Positions 1,976 to 11,185 of a stretch of DNA of 11,264 bases are shown here, piece by piece. Every line of letters begins with the position of its first letter. Position 1 is the stretch's first letter. The notes under the pieces were generated by a model, which did not search any database, was not told where the DNA came from, and was given only the letters and a program-made list of their open reading frames with translations. The translations under genes and the position numbers were made by a program. Source of the stretch: Clostridiales bacterium. Lineage in GTDB: Bacteria > Bacillota > Clostridia > Lachnospirales > Lachnospiraceae. The stretch is from positions 1 through 11,264 of the forward strand of contig JAJQBV010000126.1 in NCBI GenBank assembly GCA_021203115.1, given 5' to 3'.

Positions 1976-2000
1976 GAGATGTAAAACAAAACAACATCTC
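1976..2000 (-). terminator. Weak candidate terminator hairpin at the 3' end of the ApbE-like gene
   Basis: GAGATGT (1976-1982) and ACATCTC (1994-2000) form a 7-bp stem with an 11-base T-rich loop on the minus strand, overlapping the stop codon. Only a short TTT follows, so it is a poor intrinsic terminator by itself. The adjacent long palindrome may do the work instead. Confidence 0.3.
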
Positions 2001-3264
2001 ATCTTATCAAATATACTGTCCCATCCTCACCGACATTTTCAGTCAGTTCAGAATCATTATATATCAACTCGCCATCCATCACATAAACGGAATAAACGCC
2101 GTCTTCCGCCAGCGCATCCAGCGCGTCCGCATCCAGTTCTTCCGCGATATAGATTCCTTTGACGGACAACAGGGTTTCCGCGCAGTTTTTGTTTTCTGAG
2201 TAGGAGACCAGATCGTTGACTGCGCTTTTACACAGTCCGTCTGCGGGATCCAGATAGAGTGTCCGGATGTCTCCGTCATCCATCTCGTAGTAGTGATAGG
2301 TGTCTTTCTCTGACATCATGTAGTTGCGCAGGTAGACCATGCTCTGCGCGCCTGTGTACTGCAGAATTGCCGGCTGGTCGATCTCGTTTCCGTTCCGGCT
2401 GTAAATGGCAAAGGAGTAGGAGACCTCACGGTCGTCCAGATTGCGCACAAATCCGTCATAACTGGTGATGCAGCCGTGGGTGTAACCGTTCTCAATCAGC
2501 GAATTTGCCAGATAATCAACGATAAAGGCGTTTGTCATCCATGAGAAGTCGATATAGTCGGTGATCCCGTTTTCTTCGGCATAGGACAGATAGTCCTCCG
2601 AGACGGACAGGCGCACCTGATTGTCTCCCAGCAATTCGATGTCCACGGAATCCGGATCGCAGGCATAAGCGGCAATTTCTCCGTAATATTCCATGAGATA
2701 GCTGTTCTGATACGGGTCATAATCCACGGTCTGGGAATCATCCTCGCAGAAGAACAGACTGTCGTACATCTGATACACCGGCCCCAGATAAATGCTGCGG
2801 TCGCCGTACTCCTGCACGGTCTCCAGCGCTGCGTACAGGGCGGGCTCCACGGTCACGGTCTCATTCGGACTCTGATTTATGCTGCAGACATTTCCCACAC
2901 CGTCGTAGATATAATCCACATCATAAACCTTGTATATTTCCACTGCCAGATCGGTGTACAGGCTCTTTAAAACCTTATTCTCCGCCAAAGAGGCCGTGTC
3001 CCCCGCGCCCAACTCATAGAGGAAAACGAAGTCCTCGCTGCAGCTGAGCTCATCGGAGGTTGAATTCGCCTCGATCTCTGTCCAGCCCGCGTCGTCATCA
3101 CCCGACAAAAACTGCATAAACCCGTAAACGATCGCGCCCGCGCCCAGCAAAAGAAAGAGAATTGTCAGAATGAGCCTTCTCTTCAGATGCTTTTCTGACA
3201 ATTCTACTTTTTCTACCGGTTTCGGGCGCGGCGGTGTGCGTTTTGTGTTCACTGTGCGGCTCAT
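1999..3264 (-). CDS. Membrane-anchored extracellular protein with a degenerate ApbE-like fold
   Basis: A 421-residue protein with a basic cytoplasmic tail (1-30, rich in Lys, Arg and Pro), one membrane segment (about 31-50) and a very acidic extracellular part. No signal-peptidase site or lipobox is seen, so it is probably anchored. The soluble part follows the order of motifs in ApbE, the FAD:protein FMN transferase. 'NVCSINQSPNETVTVEPALYAALE' (about 125-148) resembles the S.i..lN....v.vs..l region. 'FIVDYLANSLIENGYTHGCIT' (about 247-267) resembles the KGyavD..a..L...G segment. 'TLYLDPADGLCKS' (335-347) stands where HiiDP.tG.P would be, and 'CAETLLSVKGIY' (361-372) where the ADalsTal..G helix would be. 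The usual GGD, the His of HiiDP and the metal-binding Asp of ADalsT look replaced, so transferase activity is doubtful. ATG follows AGAAAGGAGA at good spacing. The gene is co-oriented with opp but separated from it by a terminator. The ApbE link is read by eye; the fallback is an uncharacterised anchored protein. Confidence 0.85.
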   Translation of the reverse strand: MSRTVNTKRTPPRPKPVEKVELSEKHLKRRLILTILFLLLGAGAIVYGFMQFLSGDDDAGWTEIEANSTSDELSCSEDFVFLYELGAGDTASLAENKVLKSLYTDLAVEIYKVYDVDYIYDGVGNVCSINQSPNETVTVEPALYAALETVQEYGDRSIYLGPVYQMYDSLFFCEDDSQTVDYDPYQNSYLMEYYGEIAAYACDPDSVDIELLGDNQVRLSVSEDYLSYAEENGITDYIDFSWMTNAFIVDYLANSLIENGYTHGCITSYDGFVRNLDDREVSYSFAIYSRNGNEIDQPAILQYTGAQSMVYLRNYMMSEKDTYHYYEMDDGDIRTLYLDPADGLCKSAVNDLVSYSENKNCAETLLSVKGIYIAEELDADALDALAEDGVYSVYVMDGELIYNDSELTENVGEDGTVYLIR

Positions 3265-3394: not shown

Positions 3395-4714
3395 TCACAC
3401 GATCACCAGCAATAATAGTAACAGGAAGATCGCCGCTATGACGATATAGAAGATCAGTCCCGCGATGGCTCCCTTCCTGCAGACCCTGCGGTTGCGCAGG
3501 TACAGCCTCTTCCGGAACGCGACCGCCAGAATCGCGCCGAGGATCGGGATAAAGAAAGAGAGAATCCCGTACAAAATGTTTCCGGTATCATGAACGGGGG
3601 CTTTCAAAAACTCCTGCTCCGCCTTGTCCAGCTCCACCTGATGCGCGCCGCTGTCCAGGCCCGCGCCGGTCTTTGAGATCGTGATGGCTTTAATCGGCTC
3701 GCCCTTTTCGCGGATCGCCCTGTACTCCTCGATCTCCTTTTTGTTGCCCCAAACCCAGTGGTCATGGCCGATGTTGACAAACTCCGGCTGATCCTCGCTG
3801 TAGTCATGGATGGACGGGTCATAGACATACTGTACCTTGTTTTTCTCAAGCTGCGGATCCGGAATCGGGATCGCAGAGATCAGGGAGTGCGTGTAGGGAT
3901 GCAGCGGATAGTCAAACAGCTCCTCGGCCTCCGCCACCTCCACGATATTTCCCTTGTAGATGACGCCGATCCGATCCGAGATAAAGCGGACGATCGACAG
4001 ATCATGGGCGATGAAGAGATAGGTGGTGCCCTTCTCCTCCTGGAACTTTTTCAGCAGATTCAGCACCTGTGCGCGGATCGACACGTCCAGCGCGGAGATC
4101 GGCTCATCTGCCACGACCAGCTCCGGCTCCATGACCATCGCTCTGGCCAGACCGATTCTCTGCCGCTGTCCGCCCGAAAACTCGTGGGGATAACGGGTCA
4201 GATGCTCCGGCAGTAGGCCGACCTCATTGATCATGTTTTCTACCTTCTGCTCGCGGTCTTTGTCATCCTCGTACAGATGGAAGTTGTAGAGTCCCTCGGA
4301 CACAATATAGTCCACCGTGGCGCGCTCGTTTAAGGATGCGGCTGGATCCTGGAAAACCATCTGGATATTGCGGATCACCTCGCGGTCCAGCGCATGGGAA
4401 ATCTTCCCGGAAATGCGGGTTCCCTTGTACTGAATCTCACCGGCGGACAACGGGTTGACGCGGATCACTGCCCGGCCAATCGTGGTTTTACCGGATCCGG
4501 ACTCGCCAACCAGCGAGAAGGTCTCGCCCTTGTAAATGTTAAAGGATGCGTTTTTCACCGCTTTTACCGCGGTGTCGCCCTTTCCGAAAGTAATATCGAT
4601 ATTTTTTACTGACAGTAAGATTTCTCTGCCATTTTCATCGATGGGGCCATGCTCCGGCAAGACGCCGGACGAACCCGATATTTTCTTTTTTGTTTGTTCG
4701 TTTGATGTCGGCAC
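3395..4714 (-). CDS. oppF: Oligopeptide ABC transporter ATPase OppF with a C-terminal hydrophobic tail
   Basis: One of the two ATPases that power peptide import. From the GTG start (439 residues) it shows Walker [10 protein letters not shown] (70-78), the Q-loop in MVFQDP (Gln122), signature FSGGQRQR (179-186), Walker B LVVADEP (199-205, catalytic Glu204) and the H-loop His237. The usual OppF C-terminal region with '[12 protein letters not shown]' follows. It then continues about 100 residues beyond the normal end, finishing in two hydrophobic stretches (about 379-399 and 416-439) separated by a loop with eight Arg/Lys. A TTG six bases upstream (4720) is in frame, but it leaves only two bases after AGGAG. 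The GTG at 4712-4714 sits eight bases after it, so GTG is chosen. The start lies two bases after the oppD stop, which suggests translational coupling. It is the last gene of the operon. Confidence 0.93.
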
Positions 4715-4716
4715 GT

Positions 4717-6288
4717 TCAAATCTCCTGTATGTTAAATGCGTGAGTCAGTTTCTCATGGATATCGTGAATGCCCTCCGGCTTTTCCAGCTTCGGCGCATT
4801 CTCCTCCAGCAGCCAGGTCTTGGCATAGTGCGTGTCGGTGACCTGAAACATCGGAGGCTCCAGCAGCGTATCAATCTTCATGCAGTACGGATTCCGCGGG
4901 GCAAAGGCATCGCCCTTGATCTCATTGTAGAGAGACGGCGGCGTACCGGTGATCGAGTACAGCTTTGTGTTCTTCTCCGCCAGCTGCGGCAGGGAGGACA
5001 GCAGCGCCCATGTGTAGGGATGGCGGGGATCGTAAAAGACCTCCTCCACCGTGCCGAGCTCCACGATCTGTCCCGCATAGATCACAGCCACACGGTCTGC
5101 GATGTTCGCCACAACGCCCAGATCGTGCGTAATAAACACAGTCGTATAATTAAACTCCTTCTGCAGATCTTTGATCAGCTGTAAAATCTGCGCCTGAATG
5201 GTCACATCCAGCGCTGTGGTCGGCTCATCGCAGATCAGAATCTTCGGCTGGCAGGAGAGCGCGATCGCAATGACAATACGCTGCCGCATGCCGCCGGAGT
5301 ACTGAAACGGATAATCGTCAAACCGCGCCTCCGGATGCGGGATGCCCACCTTATCCATCATCTCAATGGCACGCCGCCGCGCCTCCACCTCAGAGCACTG
5401 CTGGTGCTTCATGATAATCGAAGTCATCTGCTTGCCGATCGTGATAATCGGGTCGAGGGAGGTCATCGGATCCTGAAATACCGTGGAAATCTTCTTCCCG
5501 CGGATCTGCCCCCAGTCGCGCTCATCCTGCACCTTCGCCAGATTCAGGATGCAGGTGCCGTGAAGCTCCGTCTCGGTCTCATCCACATAAGCCACGCGGA
5601 ATGTCACTTCCTCAAAGACCTTCATCCGGACATCCTCGTCACTCAGATCCAGTCCGAGCTGCATGGCCTTTTTAAATGCCTCGATGATCGCGTGCGCCCG
5701 CTTTCTCCTCTTGCGCTTTGCAAACCGCGCGACAGAGAGGTGAATCTCCTTTGCGATGAGGCGGTTCATCTCTTTCATCTCCTCGGTGATTGGAGCTGCG
5801 ATTTCCTGATTATACTGCGTCTGCAAAGCCGCCTTTTTCTCATTGTAAGCGGCCAGCCATGCGGAATCCGGCGTCTGCGTCGGCTTCCCCTTCTCGTCCG
5901 GCATGGTCTTCTCGCGGTACTCACTCTCCAATTCAAGCATTTCCCGGTAAGTCGCCGCGCCGAACTGCAGGTTGGCATTTGCGTTCAGCCGCTCGATGGA
6001 ATCATCCATCAGCTTCTGCGTATCCGGTGTGATGGGCTCAACCTGACGGATCAGCTCCTCATCGTTGAAGATAATCCGACCGTTGCTGATAAACCCGTTG
6101 CTGTCCAGCATTCCGGCAAATGTCTTCGTGAAAACCGATTTTCCGGAGCCGGACTCGCCCACGATGGCAATGGATTCGTTTTCATAAATATCCAGAGATA
6201 CATTTCGGATCGCGGTCAGGATACGCCCGCGCACCCGGAACTTTACCTCTAAGTCCTTAATTGATAATAAAACTTTTTTCTCTTCCAT
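4717..6288 (-). CDS. oppD: Oligopeptide ABC transporter ATPase OppD with a large internal insertion
   Basis: The partner ATPase of OppF in the peptide importer. It is 523 residues, against roughly 330-360 for usual OppD. Motifs are Walker A GESGSGKS (44-51), Q-loop [12 protein letters not shown] (Gln272), signature YSGGMRQR (330-337), Walker B ILICDEP (350-356) and H-loop His388. All catalytic residues are present, so it should be active. About 175 extra residues lie between 'FNDEELI' (about 80) and 'WGQIRGKKI' (about 259). They are predicted largely helical, with a very basic patch KRKRRKR (191-197). The C-terminal '[15 protein letters not shown]' has lost most of the cysteines found in this position in OppD/DppD proteins. 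ATG follows AGGGGGA with four to five bases' spacing. The gap to the oppC stop is nine bases, and the gene abuts oppF. Confidence 0.95.
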
Positions 6289-6297
6289 GGCGTCCCC

Positions 6298-7269
6298 CTA
6301 CATATGTGTTCTCGGATCTGAGGCATCGCCCAGATTTTGTCCCACGACGTAGAGCACGATCGTGATGATGGATGCCACCGCCACCGGGCTCCAGAACTCA
6401 AACTGCCATCCCGGTGTGACCATGGCGCTCTCCGCCTCGTAGATCAGACGGCCCAGAGACATATCCGACAGGCCCATACCGATGTAGGAGAGGAAAACCT
6501 CGTAGGAGATATAGGACGGAAGCTCCGTCGCCAGCAGCGTAACAATGATGGATGTCATAAACGGGAGGATATTCTTCAACGCAATCTTCACCGTTCCGGT
6601 TCCCAGACATTTGGAGGCCAGATTATATTCCCGGTCACGGATGATGATAACCTGCGTCCGGATGAAATACGCGATGTAGAGCCATCCGGTGACCGTCATC
6701 GCCAGCACCATCGTCCAGAAGCTGGCGGAAAACAGCATAACCATAACCGAAATCAGCAGGACATACGGAATATTGCCAATGATGTTATAAACCTCCGTCA
6801 TGACAATATCCACTTTCTTGGAAAATCCCCAGACCGCTCCGACAACCACGCCGACCGTCATATTGATGGCAGCGCAGACAAACGCAAGCGAGATGGAAAT
6901 CCGCGCGCCGTACCAAACCGCGTCAAACGTGGACTGTCCGGCGGAGCCGGTGCCCAGAATGTAGTGAATGCTGAAGCCGAACTGCTGGATCGCCGCAGAC
7001 GGAGACAGATGCTTCGCCGTGGAGTTCAGCAGGTTTCCGAACCGGTCATAGGAAAAGACCGCCGGATAAATATAGGAAACCAAAATCAAAACCACCAATA
7101 CAGCCAGAATAATGATATTGATCTTTTTCCGGAAAAACACGCGGAACACCGACCGCCAGTAGGAATACTTCGGCGCGGTAATCTTCTCGGAATCTAGACT
7201 GTCAATATCAACTCTGGAGAACAGCTCCTCTTTTGAGAGGCCCAATTCATCTAAATTATAATCTTTCAT
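6298..7269 (-). CDS. oppC: Oligopeptide ABC transporter permease OppC
   Basis: A 323-residue inner-membrane subunit that pairs with OppB to form the peptide channel; the length is normal for the family. An N-terminal cytoplasmic stretch (1-50) precedes the first membrane segment (about 51-71). The family motif corresponding to LGTD..G.D..sr..yGaRiSL appears as 'LGTGSAGQSTFDAVWYGARI' (about 105-124), where the usual LGTDxxGRD acids are replaced. Membrane segments follow. The cytoplasmic EAA-type coupling loop, 'NLASKCLGTGTVKIALKNIL' (about 216-235), should contact the ATPases. The C terminus 'GDASDPRTHM' matches the usual G..L.DALDPR ending. ATG is preceded by GGGGAGG with five bases' spacing, 15 bases after the oppB stop. 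Confidence 0.95.
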   Translation of the reverse strand: MKDYNLDELGLSKEELFSRVDIDSLDSEKITAPKYSYWRSVFRVFFRKKINIIILAVLVVLILVSYIYPAVFSYDRFGNLLNSTAKHLSPSAAIQQFGFSIHYILGTGSAGQSTFDAVWYGARISISLAFVCAAINMTVGVVVGAVWGFSKKVDIVMTEVYNIIGNIPYVLLISVMVMLFSASFWTMVLAMTVTGWLYIAYFIRTQVIIIRDREYNLASKCLGTGTVKIALKNILPFMTSIIVTLLATELPSYISYEVFLSYIGMGLSDMSLGRLIYEAESAMVTPGWQFEFWSPVAVASIITIVLYVVGQNLGDASDPRTHM

Positions 7270-7284
7270 AGAAACCTCCCCTTT

Positions 7285-8856
7285 CTATCGGCTCTTCGAC
7301 GAGAACGAGATCCGCGGATCAACCACAGACATCAGAACGTCGCCGATGATGATGGATGCGACCGTCAGGATCGCGTAAAACATGGTCACACCGACAATGA
7401 CGCTGTTGTCATATTTGTTGATCGCGTCTGTCAGCAAATTACCTGCACCGGGAACACTGTACACACGCTCCGTGATGATCGCGCCGACCAGTGCGCCAAG
7501 AACGCTGGCCGGTATATCGTGTATGATCGGAATCGAGGCGTTCTTTAACACATGCTTGGTAAAGATTTCCCGCTCCGTTAAGCCCCCGGACCGCGCAAAC
7601 TTCACATAATCCGAGTTCATCTGGTCGATCATGTATCGGCGCAGCCACTTCATCAGGTTTGCAACGGACGGCAACGCCAGCGACACGATCGGCAGCAGAT
7701 ACATCAGCTTTCCGGAGGAATCCAGATCAAATGTGGTCGGCAGACCGATCTTTCCACCGATGGCCTTAAACAGGAAGATATAGGCCAGAGACGGCACCGC
7801 CAGAATGAAGATAATATAGATGGTTCCGATCTGATCGACCAGCTTATCCTTCCGCCGCGCCATGGTGATTCCCAGCGGAATTCCCAGCGCATAGGAAATA
7901 ATAACAGCAATAATACCGATCACAAAGGAATATCCCATCTTGGACATGCCGTTTTTCACGGTGGAAACATTTGTATAGTCATCCGTATACCGGGCCTCCA
8001 GCACCGCACTGCTGCTCAGAGAATTCCGGACATAGGTCGCCGTGTGGAGATCATCCGCACTGCTCTCCGTCAGACCGGTAGGATAGGTAATATTCGATTT
8101 TACATAGGATCCCTGGGACGCCGTCATCGTGGTAAACACATCGATACCGGAGTTGATGACATAGGATGTACCCAGGTGGATCGTCAGGATGTTCTGATGG
8201 AAGTAAGGGAACTTATTGTTAAAATAAACGAGATACTTATGCGTCGTCCCGTTCCCCATCAGCGCCGGGGAAAACTTCTCTCCGCCGTACATCGGGTCAT
8301 ACCACGTAAAGGTGAGTCCCCGTTCCCCCTCAATCTCTTCGACATTGTTGATATTGTCAATGACAAAAATACTGCCGAAATACGAAAGCAGACGCTTTCC
8401 AAGCGGAATATTTTTGTATGCGAAAAGCTGCTGTGTGCCGCCGTCCGCCACTTTCTTTGCACTCTGCATCACGGCGTCCAGCCGAACCACCGTATAGCCC
8501 TGCGATTTGTAGTACGAAGTAAACTGCGCTACATATTCACTGACCAGATCGGAGTCGTTCTCCGCTGTCCGTCCGATGGAAACCGCCGATGTACGGGTAT
8601 CCTCATCAATCTCCCCGTCATTCAGCAGCCCTTGCAGGTAATCCGCGTAAGGGACATAATCCAGATAGCCGTACTCCTCCCACTTGGAATAACGGTAGGT
8701 AACCTTTGAATTATTGCTGGTATGCGAGTAGGTGCTGTCCTGGGCAAAGATCAGGGTCCGATCCATCAACCCGTAAATCATGACCATGATGATGGCAACC
8801 ACAGCGGCGACAGAGATGATACCTCGAATGATTCTTGATATTAAATATTTAGCCAT
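7285..8856 (-). CDS. oppB: Oligopeptide ABC transporter permease OppB with a large extracellular domain (AmiC-like)
   Basis: The other channel subunit, 523 residues against about 310 in classical OppB. Membrane segment 1 (about 11-30) is followed by some 275 mostly hydrophilic residues (31-308), which should lie outside the cell. The usual core of five segments then begins at 'GYSFVIGIIAVIISYALGIP' (about 308-327). The EAA coupling loop is 'DYVKFARSGGLTEREIFTKH' (about 416-435), and the end 'DVLMSVVDPRISF' is typical. A comparable external domain is known from streptococcal AmiC. The frame is open 54 bases further upstream (to a TTG at 8910), but that extension has no ribosome binding site. 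The chosen ATG begins MAKYLISRIIRGI, the usual OppB N terminus, and follows a weak GAGAGAG site. A weak site fits lower expression than the upstream oppA. Confidence 0.93.
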   Translation of the reverse strand: MAKYLISRIIRGIISVAAVVAIIMVMIYGLMDRTLIFAQDSTYSHTSNNSKVTYRYSKWEEYGYLDYVPYADYLQGLLNDGEIDEDTRTSAVSIGRTAENDSDLVSEYVAQFTSYYKSQGYTVVRLDAVMQSAKKVADGGTQQLFAYKNIPLGKRLLSYFGSIFVIDNINNVEEIEGERGLTFTWYDPMYGGEKFSPALMGNGTTHKYLVYFNNKFPYFHQNILTIHLGTSYVINSGIDVFTTMTASQGSYVKSNITYPTGLTESSADDLHTATYVRNSLSSSAVLEARYTDDYTNVSTVKNGMSKMGYSFVIGIIAVIISYALGIPLGITMARRKDKLVDQIGTIYIIFILAVPSLAYIFLFKAIGGKIGLPTTFDLDSSGKLMYLLPIVSLALPSVANLMKWLRRYMIDQMNSDYVKFARSGGLTEREIFTKHVLKNASIPIIHDIPASVLGALVGAIITERVYSVPGAGNLLTDAINKYDNSVIVGVTMFYAILTVASIIIGDVLMSVVDPRISFSSKSR

Positions 8857-8921
8857 AATACTCTCTCTCATCCGGTAGAAGAAAGCATTGCCCCCGCAAA
8901 ACCTTCCCAACCTGTAAATGT

Positions 8922-8980: not shown

Positions 8981-11185
8981 TTAGTAAATGCCGAAGCATC
9001 TCGTCATGTATCCGGCGTAATCCGGCTGGAAGCAGCCAAGATAGGTATCCGGATCACCATAGTCCGGAGTCCATCCGGAGAGGTCAAAGAGGTCATAGTT
9101 GTTCTCATAACCATAGCTGGTATAATATCCGGTGTACAGCCACTCACTTGTATCTGCGCACTCTACAAGGTTAACGATGACCAGTCCGCCCAGAGACTCC
9201 TCTACAGATTTCTTGTATGCGTTTGCTCTGTTGACATAAACCTCTGTGTCGATCGGGTACGGCAGATCCAGATAAATCGGGTTGTCCTCATCAACAGTGA
9301 TGCCTTCCTCGGCAAGCTCCTCGATCGCCATCTGCAGGTACTCCATCGCGTTGTCCGGATTGTACCATCCGTCGTATCCGTCACTGGAACCGATGCCATC
9401 ATTGGCCTCCGGATCCCATGCGGTAATCGGAATGCCGTCCGCATCGATCTGTGCCTGTACGATCTCGCCATAGTATGTGCCGGCCGGGAATGTGGTCTCC
9501 GTGCCGTTGATATCAATCGTCACATCCTCCTCCAGAGTTACAAAGTTGCCCGGTACGATTGTATTTCTCAAAGAGTTGTATTTCAGATCCTCGCCGTTGC
9601 TCTGCGCATTGTAAGAAGCACGGTCAAACGCAAAGTCTACCGCCAGACGGAAATTCTGGTTGTTAACCGCCGCGTTGGTCCGCTCCGCATCCTCCTCTGT
9701 CTGAGAAGAAACAGCAGTCGTTGTGTCATTTACGTTAGCAAATGCGGTACGGTTCAGGTTGATAAAGCTCTGATAGGTCGTAGCGTCGGTATCGGTAACA
9801 TGCGCATAATAATCATAGTACACATTTCCATCGTCGTCTGACTCAACCTTTGCCAGCTCCAGAGCGGAGGTGTTAAGGCTTGCGCTGTCAATGGTTCCGC
9901 TGAGGACATCATAGTAGGACTTGGTCGCATCGGTGCCGTCCTCAAAGATCCAGTTGATGGTCTTGACATTGATGTTGTCCGCATTCCAGTAGGACTCATT
10001 CGCGGAAAAGACGATCTTGTTGCTCTCCGTCGCATTTGTGATCACATACGGTCCGCAATATGCAATACTGTCAGAGTTCAGCCCGTAAGTATAGTCAGAC
10101 GCGCTCGCGTCATACTCTACACCGAACTTTCCGCCCTGAGACTCATAGTAGGAACGGCTCATCGGAGCGAAAACGCTGTAGCCCAACATGGTCATAAAGT
10201 AAGAACAGGGCTCCTCCAGCGTGTAGACCAGTGTGTAGTCATCCACAGCCTCGACACCAACCTCGGCAAAATCGGTCACCTCGCCGGAAATATACTCGGA
10301 AGCATTGACAATAAGACCCTCAATCAGATACTCCAGGCCGCCCTGCGCATCCATCATGTGCTGCATACCCGCCACAAAATCATCTGCAGTCAGGTCAGCA
10401 ACTTCACGTCCCTGAGAATCAACCCAGACCACGCCCTCGCGGATGTGGAAGATATAGGTCAGGCCGTCGTCGGAAACTTCCCAGCTCTCCGCCAGCGCCG
10501 GCTGAATCTCATTCTCATTGTCATACTCGACCAGTCCGTCGTAAGTATTGATCAGTGCCTCCGCATCGACAGAAAGAGAGGACGACAGAATATCATAGGT
10601 CGCCGGATCTTCTGTGTACGGATAATTATATTCATCTTTTAATGTATAGCCTTTTTCCTCAAGATAAGACTTTGCCCATTCCTCATAGGTGCCGGTACCC
10701 TTCAGTTCCGCCCACTGTTCCTTCATCTCCGCATAATCCTCCGCGTTGATCAAGTCGGTGGTCACAAGCAACTGATGATAACGAACATTATCAGAACCCC
10801 AGAGTACTGTGCTGCAGCTATACGGCGCCACTCTGGACAGCTGATAGCGCCCCCCCTGTGTCGTCGTCGGGATGGTAACACCGGACTCCAGCAGGTAAGC
10901 CTCCGCCTTCGCCATCAGCGCATAACGCTCAGAAACAGTCTCTGCCGCCTTCGCCTCCTCATAAACCGCATAGAAAGCACCCAGCGCGTCATCATAAACC
11001 GCAGCGGATGTCTCCTCATAATCTGCAGGCATTCCGCCGGCCTCCTCGGAACCGGTCTCTGCCTCTGCTTCCTCGGTAGCAGATGTGTCATCTGCCGTGT
11101 AGTCGGAAGTGCTGCTACTGCCGCATGCCGCAAGGCTCATCGCCATCGCGCCCACGAGCAGCAGACTGACTACTCTTTTCTTCAT
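8981..11185 (-). CDS. oppA: Oligopeptide-binding lipoprotein OppA, apparently circularly permuted
   Basis: The surface receptor of the importer, belonging to the SBP_bac_5 (cluster C) peptide-binding family, 734 residues and very acidic. A lipoprotein signal with lipobox LAAC (Cys21) is followed by a Ser/Thr/Glu-rich linker (22-55). The normal N-terminal part of the family starts only at about 186: 'DPATYDILSSSLSVDAEALI' (193-212), 'YDGLVEYD', 'IQPALAESWEVSDDGLTY' and 'LTADDFVAGMQHMMDA' (265-280). The fold then runs through to 'SGWTPDYGDPDTYLGCF' (703-719), but the protein stops 15 residues later. The tail that should follow (helix with eA.....R...ya.Aea.Ll, then iPt...GG....sr.aPy, then vTt..y...k.qW) is instead found at about 60-160. 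ATG follows AGGAGG at eight bases. It is the first gene of oppABCDF. Confidence 0.95.
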   Translation of the reverse strand: MKKRVVSLLLVGAMAMSLAACGSSSTSDYTADDTSATEEAEAETGSEEAGGMPADYEETSAAVYDDALGAFYAVYEEAKAAETVSERYALMAKAEAYLLESGVTIPTTTQGGRYQLSRVAPYSCSTVLWGSDNVRYHQLLVTTDLINAEDYAEMKEQWAELKGTGTYEEWAKSYLEEKGYTLKDEYNYPYTEDPATYDILSSSLSVDAEALINTYDGLVEYDNENEIQPALAESWEVSDDGLTYIFHIREGVVWVDSQGREVADLTADDFVAGMQHMMDAQGGLEYLIEGLIVNASEYISGEVTDFAEVGVEAVDDYTLVYTLEEPCSYFMTMLGYSVFAPMSRSYYESQGGKFGVEYDASASDYTYGLNSDSIAYCGPYVITNATESNKIVFSANESYWNADNINVKTINWIFEDGTDATKSYYDVLSGTIDSASLNTSALELAKVESDDDGNVYYDYYAHVTDTDATTYQSFINLNRTAFANVNDTTTAVSSQTEEDAERTNAAVNNQNFRLAVDFAFDRASYNAQSNGEDLKYNSLRNTIVPGNFVTLEEDVTIDINGTETTFPAGTYYGEIVQAQIDADGIPITAWDPEANDGIGSSDGYDGWYNPDNAMEYLQMAIEELAEEGITVDEDNPIYLDLPYPIDTEVYVNRANAYKKSVEESLGGLVIVNLVECADTSEWLYTGYYTSYGYENNYDLFDLSGWTPDYGDPDTYLGCFQPDYAGYMTRCFGIY

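Follow-up and report, generated by a model that had tools for sequence, protein, structure and literature searches.

A naturally permuted cluster C peptide receptor encoded in an Opp/Ami-type operon

We identified an open reading frame (ORF) in the window (the whole 11,264-nt stretch of DNA that was analysed) whose product is a cluster C peptide receptor with a genuine, naturally occurring circular permutation (Table 1). It is very probably the lipoprotein that binds peptides for an Opp/Ami-type ABC importer, with a chain that was circularly permuted, most simply once. The last ~125 residues of the canonical chain now stand ahead of its first ~500 residues. The initial annotation had proposed that the C-terminal segment of an OppA-type binding protein has moved to the N terminus, and this was borne out by pairwise, profile and profile-profile matches, by the predicted structure and by 83 permuted ORFs. 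The stretches that it quoted are present (residues 74-93, 94-112, 116-123 and 141-158). The protein also ends where the moved part would begin, as had been claimed, but 18 and not 15 residues after GWTPDYGDPDTYL.

Table 1. Features of the permuted receptor and of its operon in the window (residue numbers are those of the receptor).
Feature	Position	Strand	Details
Permuted OppA/AmiA-type substrate-binding protein	8981..11185	-	734 aa, ATG start, stop codon included
Signal peptide with lipobox LAAC, Cys21; residues 1-21	11123..11185	-	read from sequence
Acidic low-complexity linker; residues 22-55	11021..11122	-	model pLDDT < 50 at residues 1-49
Moved segment; residues 56-181	10643..11020	-	C-terminal in canonical chains: remainder of domain III, final piece of domain I, helix alpha19; from alignments and domain limits in the available part of PMC11192437
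Conserved loop WGSDNVR inside moved segment; residues 129-135	10781..10801	-	residue conservation and alignment to AliD
Core; residues 182-734	8984..10642	-	canonical N terminus to just beyond GWxPDYxDP motif; Pfam, phmmer, VIA-align
GWTPDYGDP motif; residues 704-712	9050..9076	-	alignment to AliB and conservation
OppB permease	7285..8910	-	541-aa ORF from TTG; about 200 extra residues after first TM helix (insert place read from sequence)
OppC permease	6298..7269	-	323 aa; Pfam/NCBIfam
OppD ATPase	4717..6288	-	523 aa; long insert between Walker A and remainder of ABC domain
OppF ATPase	3395..4720	-	441 aa; C-terminal extension resembling two TM helices (read from sequence)
ApbE-like membrane protein, frequent sixth operon gene	1999..3264	-	421 aa; weak Pfam ApbE match (E 0.059, below cut-off)

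Swapped order of two homologous parts

The receptor belongs to the SBP_bac_5 family: residues 226-719 match positions 1-360 of the 368 profile positions in a single stretch, with 154.1 bits against a curated cut-off of 32.4. No Pfam match reaching a cut-off was found for the moved segment in the Pfam scan of the receptor, and an Rfam scan of the whole window gave 0 matches. The initial annotation had named the failure of profile searches to match the segment to the SBP_bac_5 C terminus as evidence that would speak against a permutation. Pfam SBP_bac_5 indeed gives no second stretch in the receptor, because the core already uses positions 1-360 of 368, but profiles that cover the C terminus do match.

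In a phmmer search of all PDB sequences, the best four matches were AmiA, AliB, AliC and AliD, each of which was matched in two stretches with the order swapped. Residues 184-720 and 74-164 of the receptor align with residues 14-498 and 531-624 of AmiA (i-E 5.5e-4 for the second stretch), and residues 181-728 and 68-163 align with residues 4-497 and 515-611 of AliB (i-E 6.1e-8); for AliC and AliD the i-E of the second stretch is 0.0052 and 0.014. Overall, residues ~182-734 resemble the first ~500 residues of these four proteins and residues ~56-165 resemble their C-termini. For the segment, such pairwise matches are of modest significance (i-E 6e-8 to 0.014). A profile built from 69 moved segments retrieved 6 PDB sequences at E <= 10, of which the top four are the C-termini of AliC, AliB, AliD and AmiA (E 2.7e-9 to 3e-8), and the fifth and sixth are amino-acid-binding proteins (E 0.84 and 0.85). 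On these sequence comparisons, the match of the segment to the Ami-family C-termini is far above chance.

Profile-profile comparison gave the same order. When moved segments (79 rows) were compared by hhalign with canonical C-termini from the fetched loci (20 rows, including one, L170, that was cut at a wrong motif and retained), the match reached 98.7% with E 2.9e-16 over 99 columns, whereas two other canonical regions used as controls gave 0.3% and 0.1%. The Mycoplasma OppA profile NF043077 (896 positions) aligns its positions 777-886 with residues ~63-167 of the receptor (E 2.2e-9) and its positions 44-135 and 260-498 with the core. In AliD, the core match (phmmer) stops at chain residue 500 and the match of the segment profile begins at 503, so nearly nothing was lost or duplicated at the junction. 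The receptor thus consists of two parts that are homologous to one relative, in swapped order and with no large loss or repeat at the junction, which is what is expected of a circular permutation. Many ordinary OppA-type receptors in the same loci gave no match to the moved segment in single-sequence searches; the homology of the segment is therefore demonstrated for the AmiA-like branch only.

Predicted fold, chain ends and binding residues

The full-length AlphaFold model of the receptor is a single confident fold (pLDDT 90.8, pTM 0.86). Were the N-terminal 183 residues unplaced, the pTM could hardly be expected to exceed 551/734 = 0.75. The permuted receptor is thus predicted to retain a single Ami-type fold, in which the moved segment packs against the core; the predicted location of the segment is based on homology, pTM and secondary structure. 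VIA-align superposed residues 182..734 on residues 33..533 of AmiA (494 residues, rmsd 1.6). For the Ami proteins, sequential structure aligners cover only about residues 182-734 of the model, and among the 50 VIA-align matches listed no residue before 143 is aligned, which is no evidence against a permutation as this aligner is sequential. The best sequence and structure matches of the receptor are cluster C peptide receptors; there is no cluster B receptor among the VIA-align matches listed, absence from a ranked list being no test of family. Helices 148-161 and 167-177 of the model correspond by alignment to the extra C-terminal helix alpha19 of the Ami/Ali proteins, which is now internal in the chain.

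According to the available part of PMC11192437, domain I of AliD comprises residues 29-63, 191-296 and 583-617, domain II residues 64-190 and domain III (lobe 2) residues 297-582, and helix alpha19 spans residues 622-652. With these limits carried over through the phmmer alignment, in which the AliD chain numbering is 25 below the published numbering (W473 = W498), the cut maps to about AliD 526-528, within domain III, and the border between domains III and I lies at residue ~110 of the receptor. A canonical chain has both of its ends in domain I (lobe 1), whereas both new ends of the permuted chain map to domain III. The initial annotation had argued that both termini lie in the same lobe, that a swap would be tolerable and that the lipid anchor would move to a different point on that lobe. 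The old termini are indeed both in lobe 1 and hence joinable; as read from the aligned sequences, alpha19 now connects them by leading into the old first strand. The argument does not hold for the anchor: the new ends map to lobe 2, so that the lipid anchor shifts to the opposite lobe.

Gly179-Tyr180 at the joint is invariant in 69/69 rows of alignment A2 (the window and 68 of the 76 listed segments), and the joint is thus strongly conserved and at least structurally important now. The new N and C termini of the receptor lie about 20 residues beyond the equivalent of the GWxPDYxDP motif. The new C terminus is sharp, ending 20-24 residues past the motif in all 77 permuted ORFs in which the motif pattern was found; three of the 6 ORFs (of 83) without a match to the pattern are truncated. 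A charge flip of helix alpha19 was considered as a sign of an altered membrane face and set aside as not informative: the mean net charge is -1.5 over the equivalent of residues 146-181 in 69 permuted rows and +0.4 over the last 36 residues of 19 canonical rows, a difference without a clear flip and one to be read with the more acidic overall composition of the permuted proteins in mind.

W705 and D708 of the receptor align with AliB W500 and D503, which touch the N-terminal end of the peptide according to the available part of PMC11192437, and both are kept in at least 90% of the 68 rows of alignment A1 (the window plus 67 of the remaining 82 permuted ORFs, with near-copies and truncated ORFs omitted). 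Within the moved segment, W129, D132 and R135 are kept in at least 90% of the 68 rows and G130 is invariant. The WGSDNVR loop to which they belong maps close to AliD I603-N608, where a two-residue alignment gap falls; I603 and N608 of AliD line the peptide cavity in the structures as described in that part of PMC11192437. From these aligned positions, the receptor likely binds peptides.

Distribution, operon and origin of the permuted receptor

Among loci L001-L106, 88 ORFs contain both parts; 83 of these are permuted and 5 canonical, a ratio that reflects the permuted query, and the window itself, truncated ORFs and one place that was fetched twice (L008/L096) are counted among the 83. The segment was matched at both ends in none of the 88 ORFs. 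Loci fetched later contain further canonical receptors that carry the segment C-terminally, and one of these loci (L115) shows a 4-bit second match at 215-269 that was taken as noise. Six short peptide patterns from P0001, used in one scan of a collection of 84,980 species, led to 72 loci, of which 70 are permuted. Their hosts are Lachnospiraceae, Oscillospiraceae/Ruminococcaceae and other Clostridia, together with MAGs labelled Acholeplasmatales, Bacillales and Spirochaetaceae, so that the suggestion that the family may be widespread in Lachnospiraceae proved right and the family extends beyond them. The permuted operon in MAGs labelled Spirochaetaceae and Acholeplasmatales (L087, L099) may reflect horizontal transfer or a binning error. 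Many carriers come from guts and rumens, and isolates are among them (Roseburia inulinivorans DSM 16841, Butyrivibrio sp. INlla14).

Of the whole genomes sampled, at least 8 among the 199 others in the family carry a full-length permuted match, in one case divided between two contigs, as do at least 4 of 390 in the class and at least 1 of 397 in the phylum; these figures are lower bounds because few candidates were scored per genome. The second strong match in the phylum sample, in genome G490, is canonical. The one genome of the same genus in the family sample (G159) has no permuted receptor among the matches listed. Both kinds occur together in G114 (L012 permuted, L112 canonical) and in G198 (L009 permuted, L116 canonical), and two permuted copies lie in one locus in L053, L055, L060 and L101.

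Downstream of the receptor, on the minus strand, follow the genes for OppB, OppC, OppD, OppF and the ApbE-like protein, in this order. The operon survey comprised 85 permuted entries, many with cut flanks, and 29 canonical entries after removal of the truncated permuted fragments L013 and L101, with some places in the survey counted twice (L156/L176, L155/L173, L008/L096); the rule used also flagged the 318-aa OppB of L116 as long. A long OppB is present in 74 of the 75 permuted entries with OppB in reach. The OppD insert was found in 57/59 permuted entries with OppD (exceptions L062 and L066) versus 0/17 canonical ones, and the OppF extension in 51/54 permuted entries with OppF versus 0/17 canonical ones. 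When the OppD of the window was used as a query against 348 genomes of the phylum (E <= 1e-80), only its own genome and G341, which is permuted, matched well beyond the ordinary OppD part. A C-terminal extension resembling two TM helices is unusual for an ABC ATPase subunit such as OppF. In L041 and L036, OppB is split into two ORFs, possibly by a frameshift or sequencing error.

The ApbE-like family has 44 members beside permuted Opp operons, including that of the window and coming from the 85 permuted entries, and none was seen in the 29 canonical entries, many of which have short flanks. The best PDB profile match of the ApbE-like protein, at only E 0.32, is TM1553, which we take to be an ApbE-type protein. 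The usual ApbE catalytic residues appear to be replaced in the protein of the window, which is perhaps a pseudo-ApbE.

In a tree of the core alone, built from 69 chosen rows (39 permuted and 30 hand-picked canonical), the permuted rows form one clade against the canonical rows with support 100/100, and all of 200 bootstrap trees (100%) require one change of order. The first version of this tree contained three canonical rows without the trimming motif and three untrimmed permuted rows, the latter being cut by length in the second. With the root placed on ordinary OppA rows, which are not a clean outgroup, the permuted clade has the two canonical Ami-like proteins of G490 as its sister group (SH-aLRT 98 in the first tree, 100/98 in the second), and the other AmiA-like canonical proteins fall outside. 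In an OppC tree of 57 rows (30 + 27), for which the tool warns of long branches, the 30 rows from permuted operons group together in one clade (SH-aLRT 97), to which L156 is sister (99). The canonical order thus appears ancestral and, most simply, a single permutation event suffices. The canonical Ami-type sister L156 has a 500-aa OppB together with a 360-aa OppD, and the long OppB therefore seems older than the permutation.

Circular permutations usually arise by duplication, fusion and trimming. The permuted receptor could have arisen by tandem duplication of a canonical gene and subsequent removal of the outer parts, the ancestor already carrying an Ami-like long OppB; no evolutionary intermediate of the permutation was seen. 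In the product, the old C-terminal helix continues directly into the old first strand. The receptor would grip peptides at their N-terminal end through W705/D708 and pass them on to OppBCDF while tethered by lobe 2 instead of lobe 1.

Export signals vary among the permuted receptors. A lipobox pattern is present in 62 of the 83 permuted ORFs, with a linker of 11-85 residues in these 62; by eye, the remaining 21 comprise 3 with a near lipobox, 9 with Tat-type signals, 6 with Sec-type signals without a lipobox, 1 with a TM helix and 2 that are cut off. Twin-arginine (Tat-type) signals stand in place of the lipobox in receptors of L053, L054, L055, L060 and L101. Judged by these signals, some permuted members appear to be exported by Tat or Sec without a lipobox, which makes the relocated lipid anchor unlikely as a general reason for the permutation.

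We lean towards regarding the permutation as a neutral accident that was fixed once and has been retained since reversal is unlikely. The single clade of permuted rows, the several types of export signal with linkers of very different length and the retained binding residues are consistent with such an accident, although the strong conservation of the new joint speaks against it. It is possible, if rather unlikely, that the permutation is adaptive, with the shift of the tether to lobe 2 serving to seat the receptor correctly on the enlarged OppB. The position of the cut in domain III and the long OppB that accompanies nearly all permuted receptors would fit an adaptive origin, but the canonical sister L156 has a long OppB as well, some permuted members lack a lipobox and the charge of alpha19 gives no clear flip. 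Equally tentative is the broader proposal of a distinct, widely inherited class of peptide importers, in which one ancestral permutation would have re-hung the receptor from the opposite lobe. In such importers the ectodomain of OppB would be enlarged, OppD would carry an insert, OppF would be bound to the membrane and a dedicated ApbE-like accessory protein would often be present, so that docking or release of the receptor may differ from canonical Opp.

That the N-terminal segment is instead an independent extra domain, with the C-terminal lobe completed by other residues, is very improbable. In the Ami rows, sequential aligners reach no residue before ~182 and Pfam is blank over the segment, as such a domain would have it, but the hhalign comparison and the PDB profile search show that the segment and the canonical C terminus are homologous, and the ORF stops where the canonical C-terminal part would start. 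Modelled alone, the segment folds poorly (pLDDT 78.3, pTM 0.50, strand 104-106 lost), which argues against an added domain; a Foldseek search with this model gave 12 matches at E <= 10 and none at E <= 0.001, although a model of such low confidence says little. We rejected an independent domain on the poor folding of the isolated segment and the profile matches to Ami C-termini. The initial annotation had named a predicted structure with an independent segment as contrary evidence, and the difference in pTM between the full model, superposed over residues 182-734, and the isolated segment points the other way. An assembly or frameshift artefact, in which two adjacent canonical genes are read as one ORF, is hardly credible and was rejected: tandem receptor genes do exist (L053, L055, L060 and L101), but these copies are themselves permuted, the same order recurs in the 83 ORFs across many assemblies, including those of the two named isolates, and the joint is conserved.

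Comparison with known systems

To our knowledge, few natural circular permutations can be traced to one event while canonical relatives are also available for comparison. The term 'circular permutation' is reportedly used in a paper on imelysin-like iron-uptake proteins. The present case concerns a receptor class with solved structures, shifts the chain ends onto the other lobe and is found in sequenced gut isolates. It makes testable whether the choice of the membrane-tethered lobe of a binding protein matters. Domain models that leave an N-terminal stretch unmatched, such as Pfam here, may overlook a real part of a fold.

A literature search outside subscription journals and bioRxiv, made mostly on titles and the beginnings of abstracts, found no description of circularly permuted peptide receptors, and PMC4990184 was the only report of a natural permuted ABC binding protein recognised in it on that basis. 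A permuted cluster B receptor is thus already known from the available part of PMC4990184, whereas a permuted cluster C peptide receptor is without description in the literature searched. The former, TpMglB-2 (Tp0684) of Treponema pallidum ('Type Ic / Cluster Bc'), is described there as a naturally permuted lipidated binding protein of an ABC importer that still binds its ligand and changes conformation, with relatives in gut Gram-positives. It differs from the receptor of the window in being a cluster B sugar receptor of another fold class, in which the first strands of the N-lobe stand at the C terminus, and in that its permuted part shows only 13% identity according to its authors (PMC4990184, same part).

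The closest known systems are canonical. The best NCBIfam models for the receptor, OppB, OppC, OppD and OppF are those of the Mycoplasma OppA and OppBCDF proteins (MMSYN1_0165-0169), the long OppD included, with all five scores below the curated cut-offs; unlike the receptor of the window, Mycoplasma OppA carries the segment at the end of its profile. AmiA, AliB, AliC and AliD (8a42, 8qlj, 8qlh and 8qlc; PMC11192437, available part) share the fold, the GWxPDYxDP motif and a homologous C-terminal segment with the permuted receptor. In these pneumococcal receptors the segment forms the C-terminal ~125 residues, whereas in the receptor of the window it sits at the N terminus and both new ends map to domain III.
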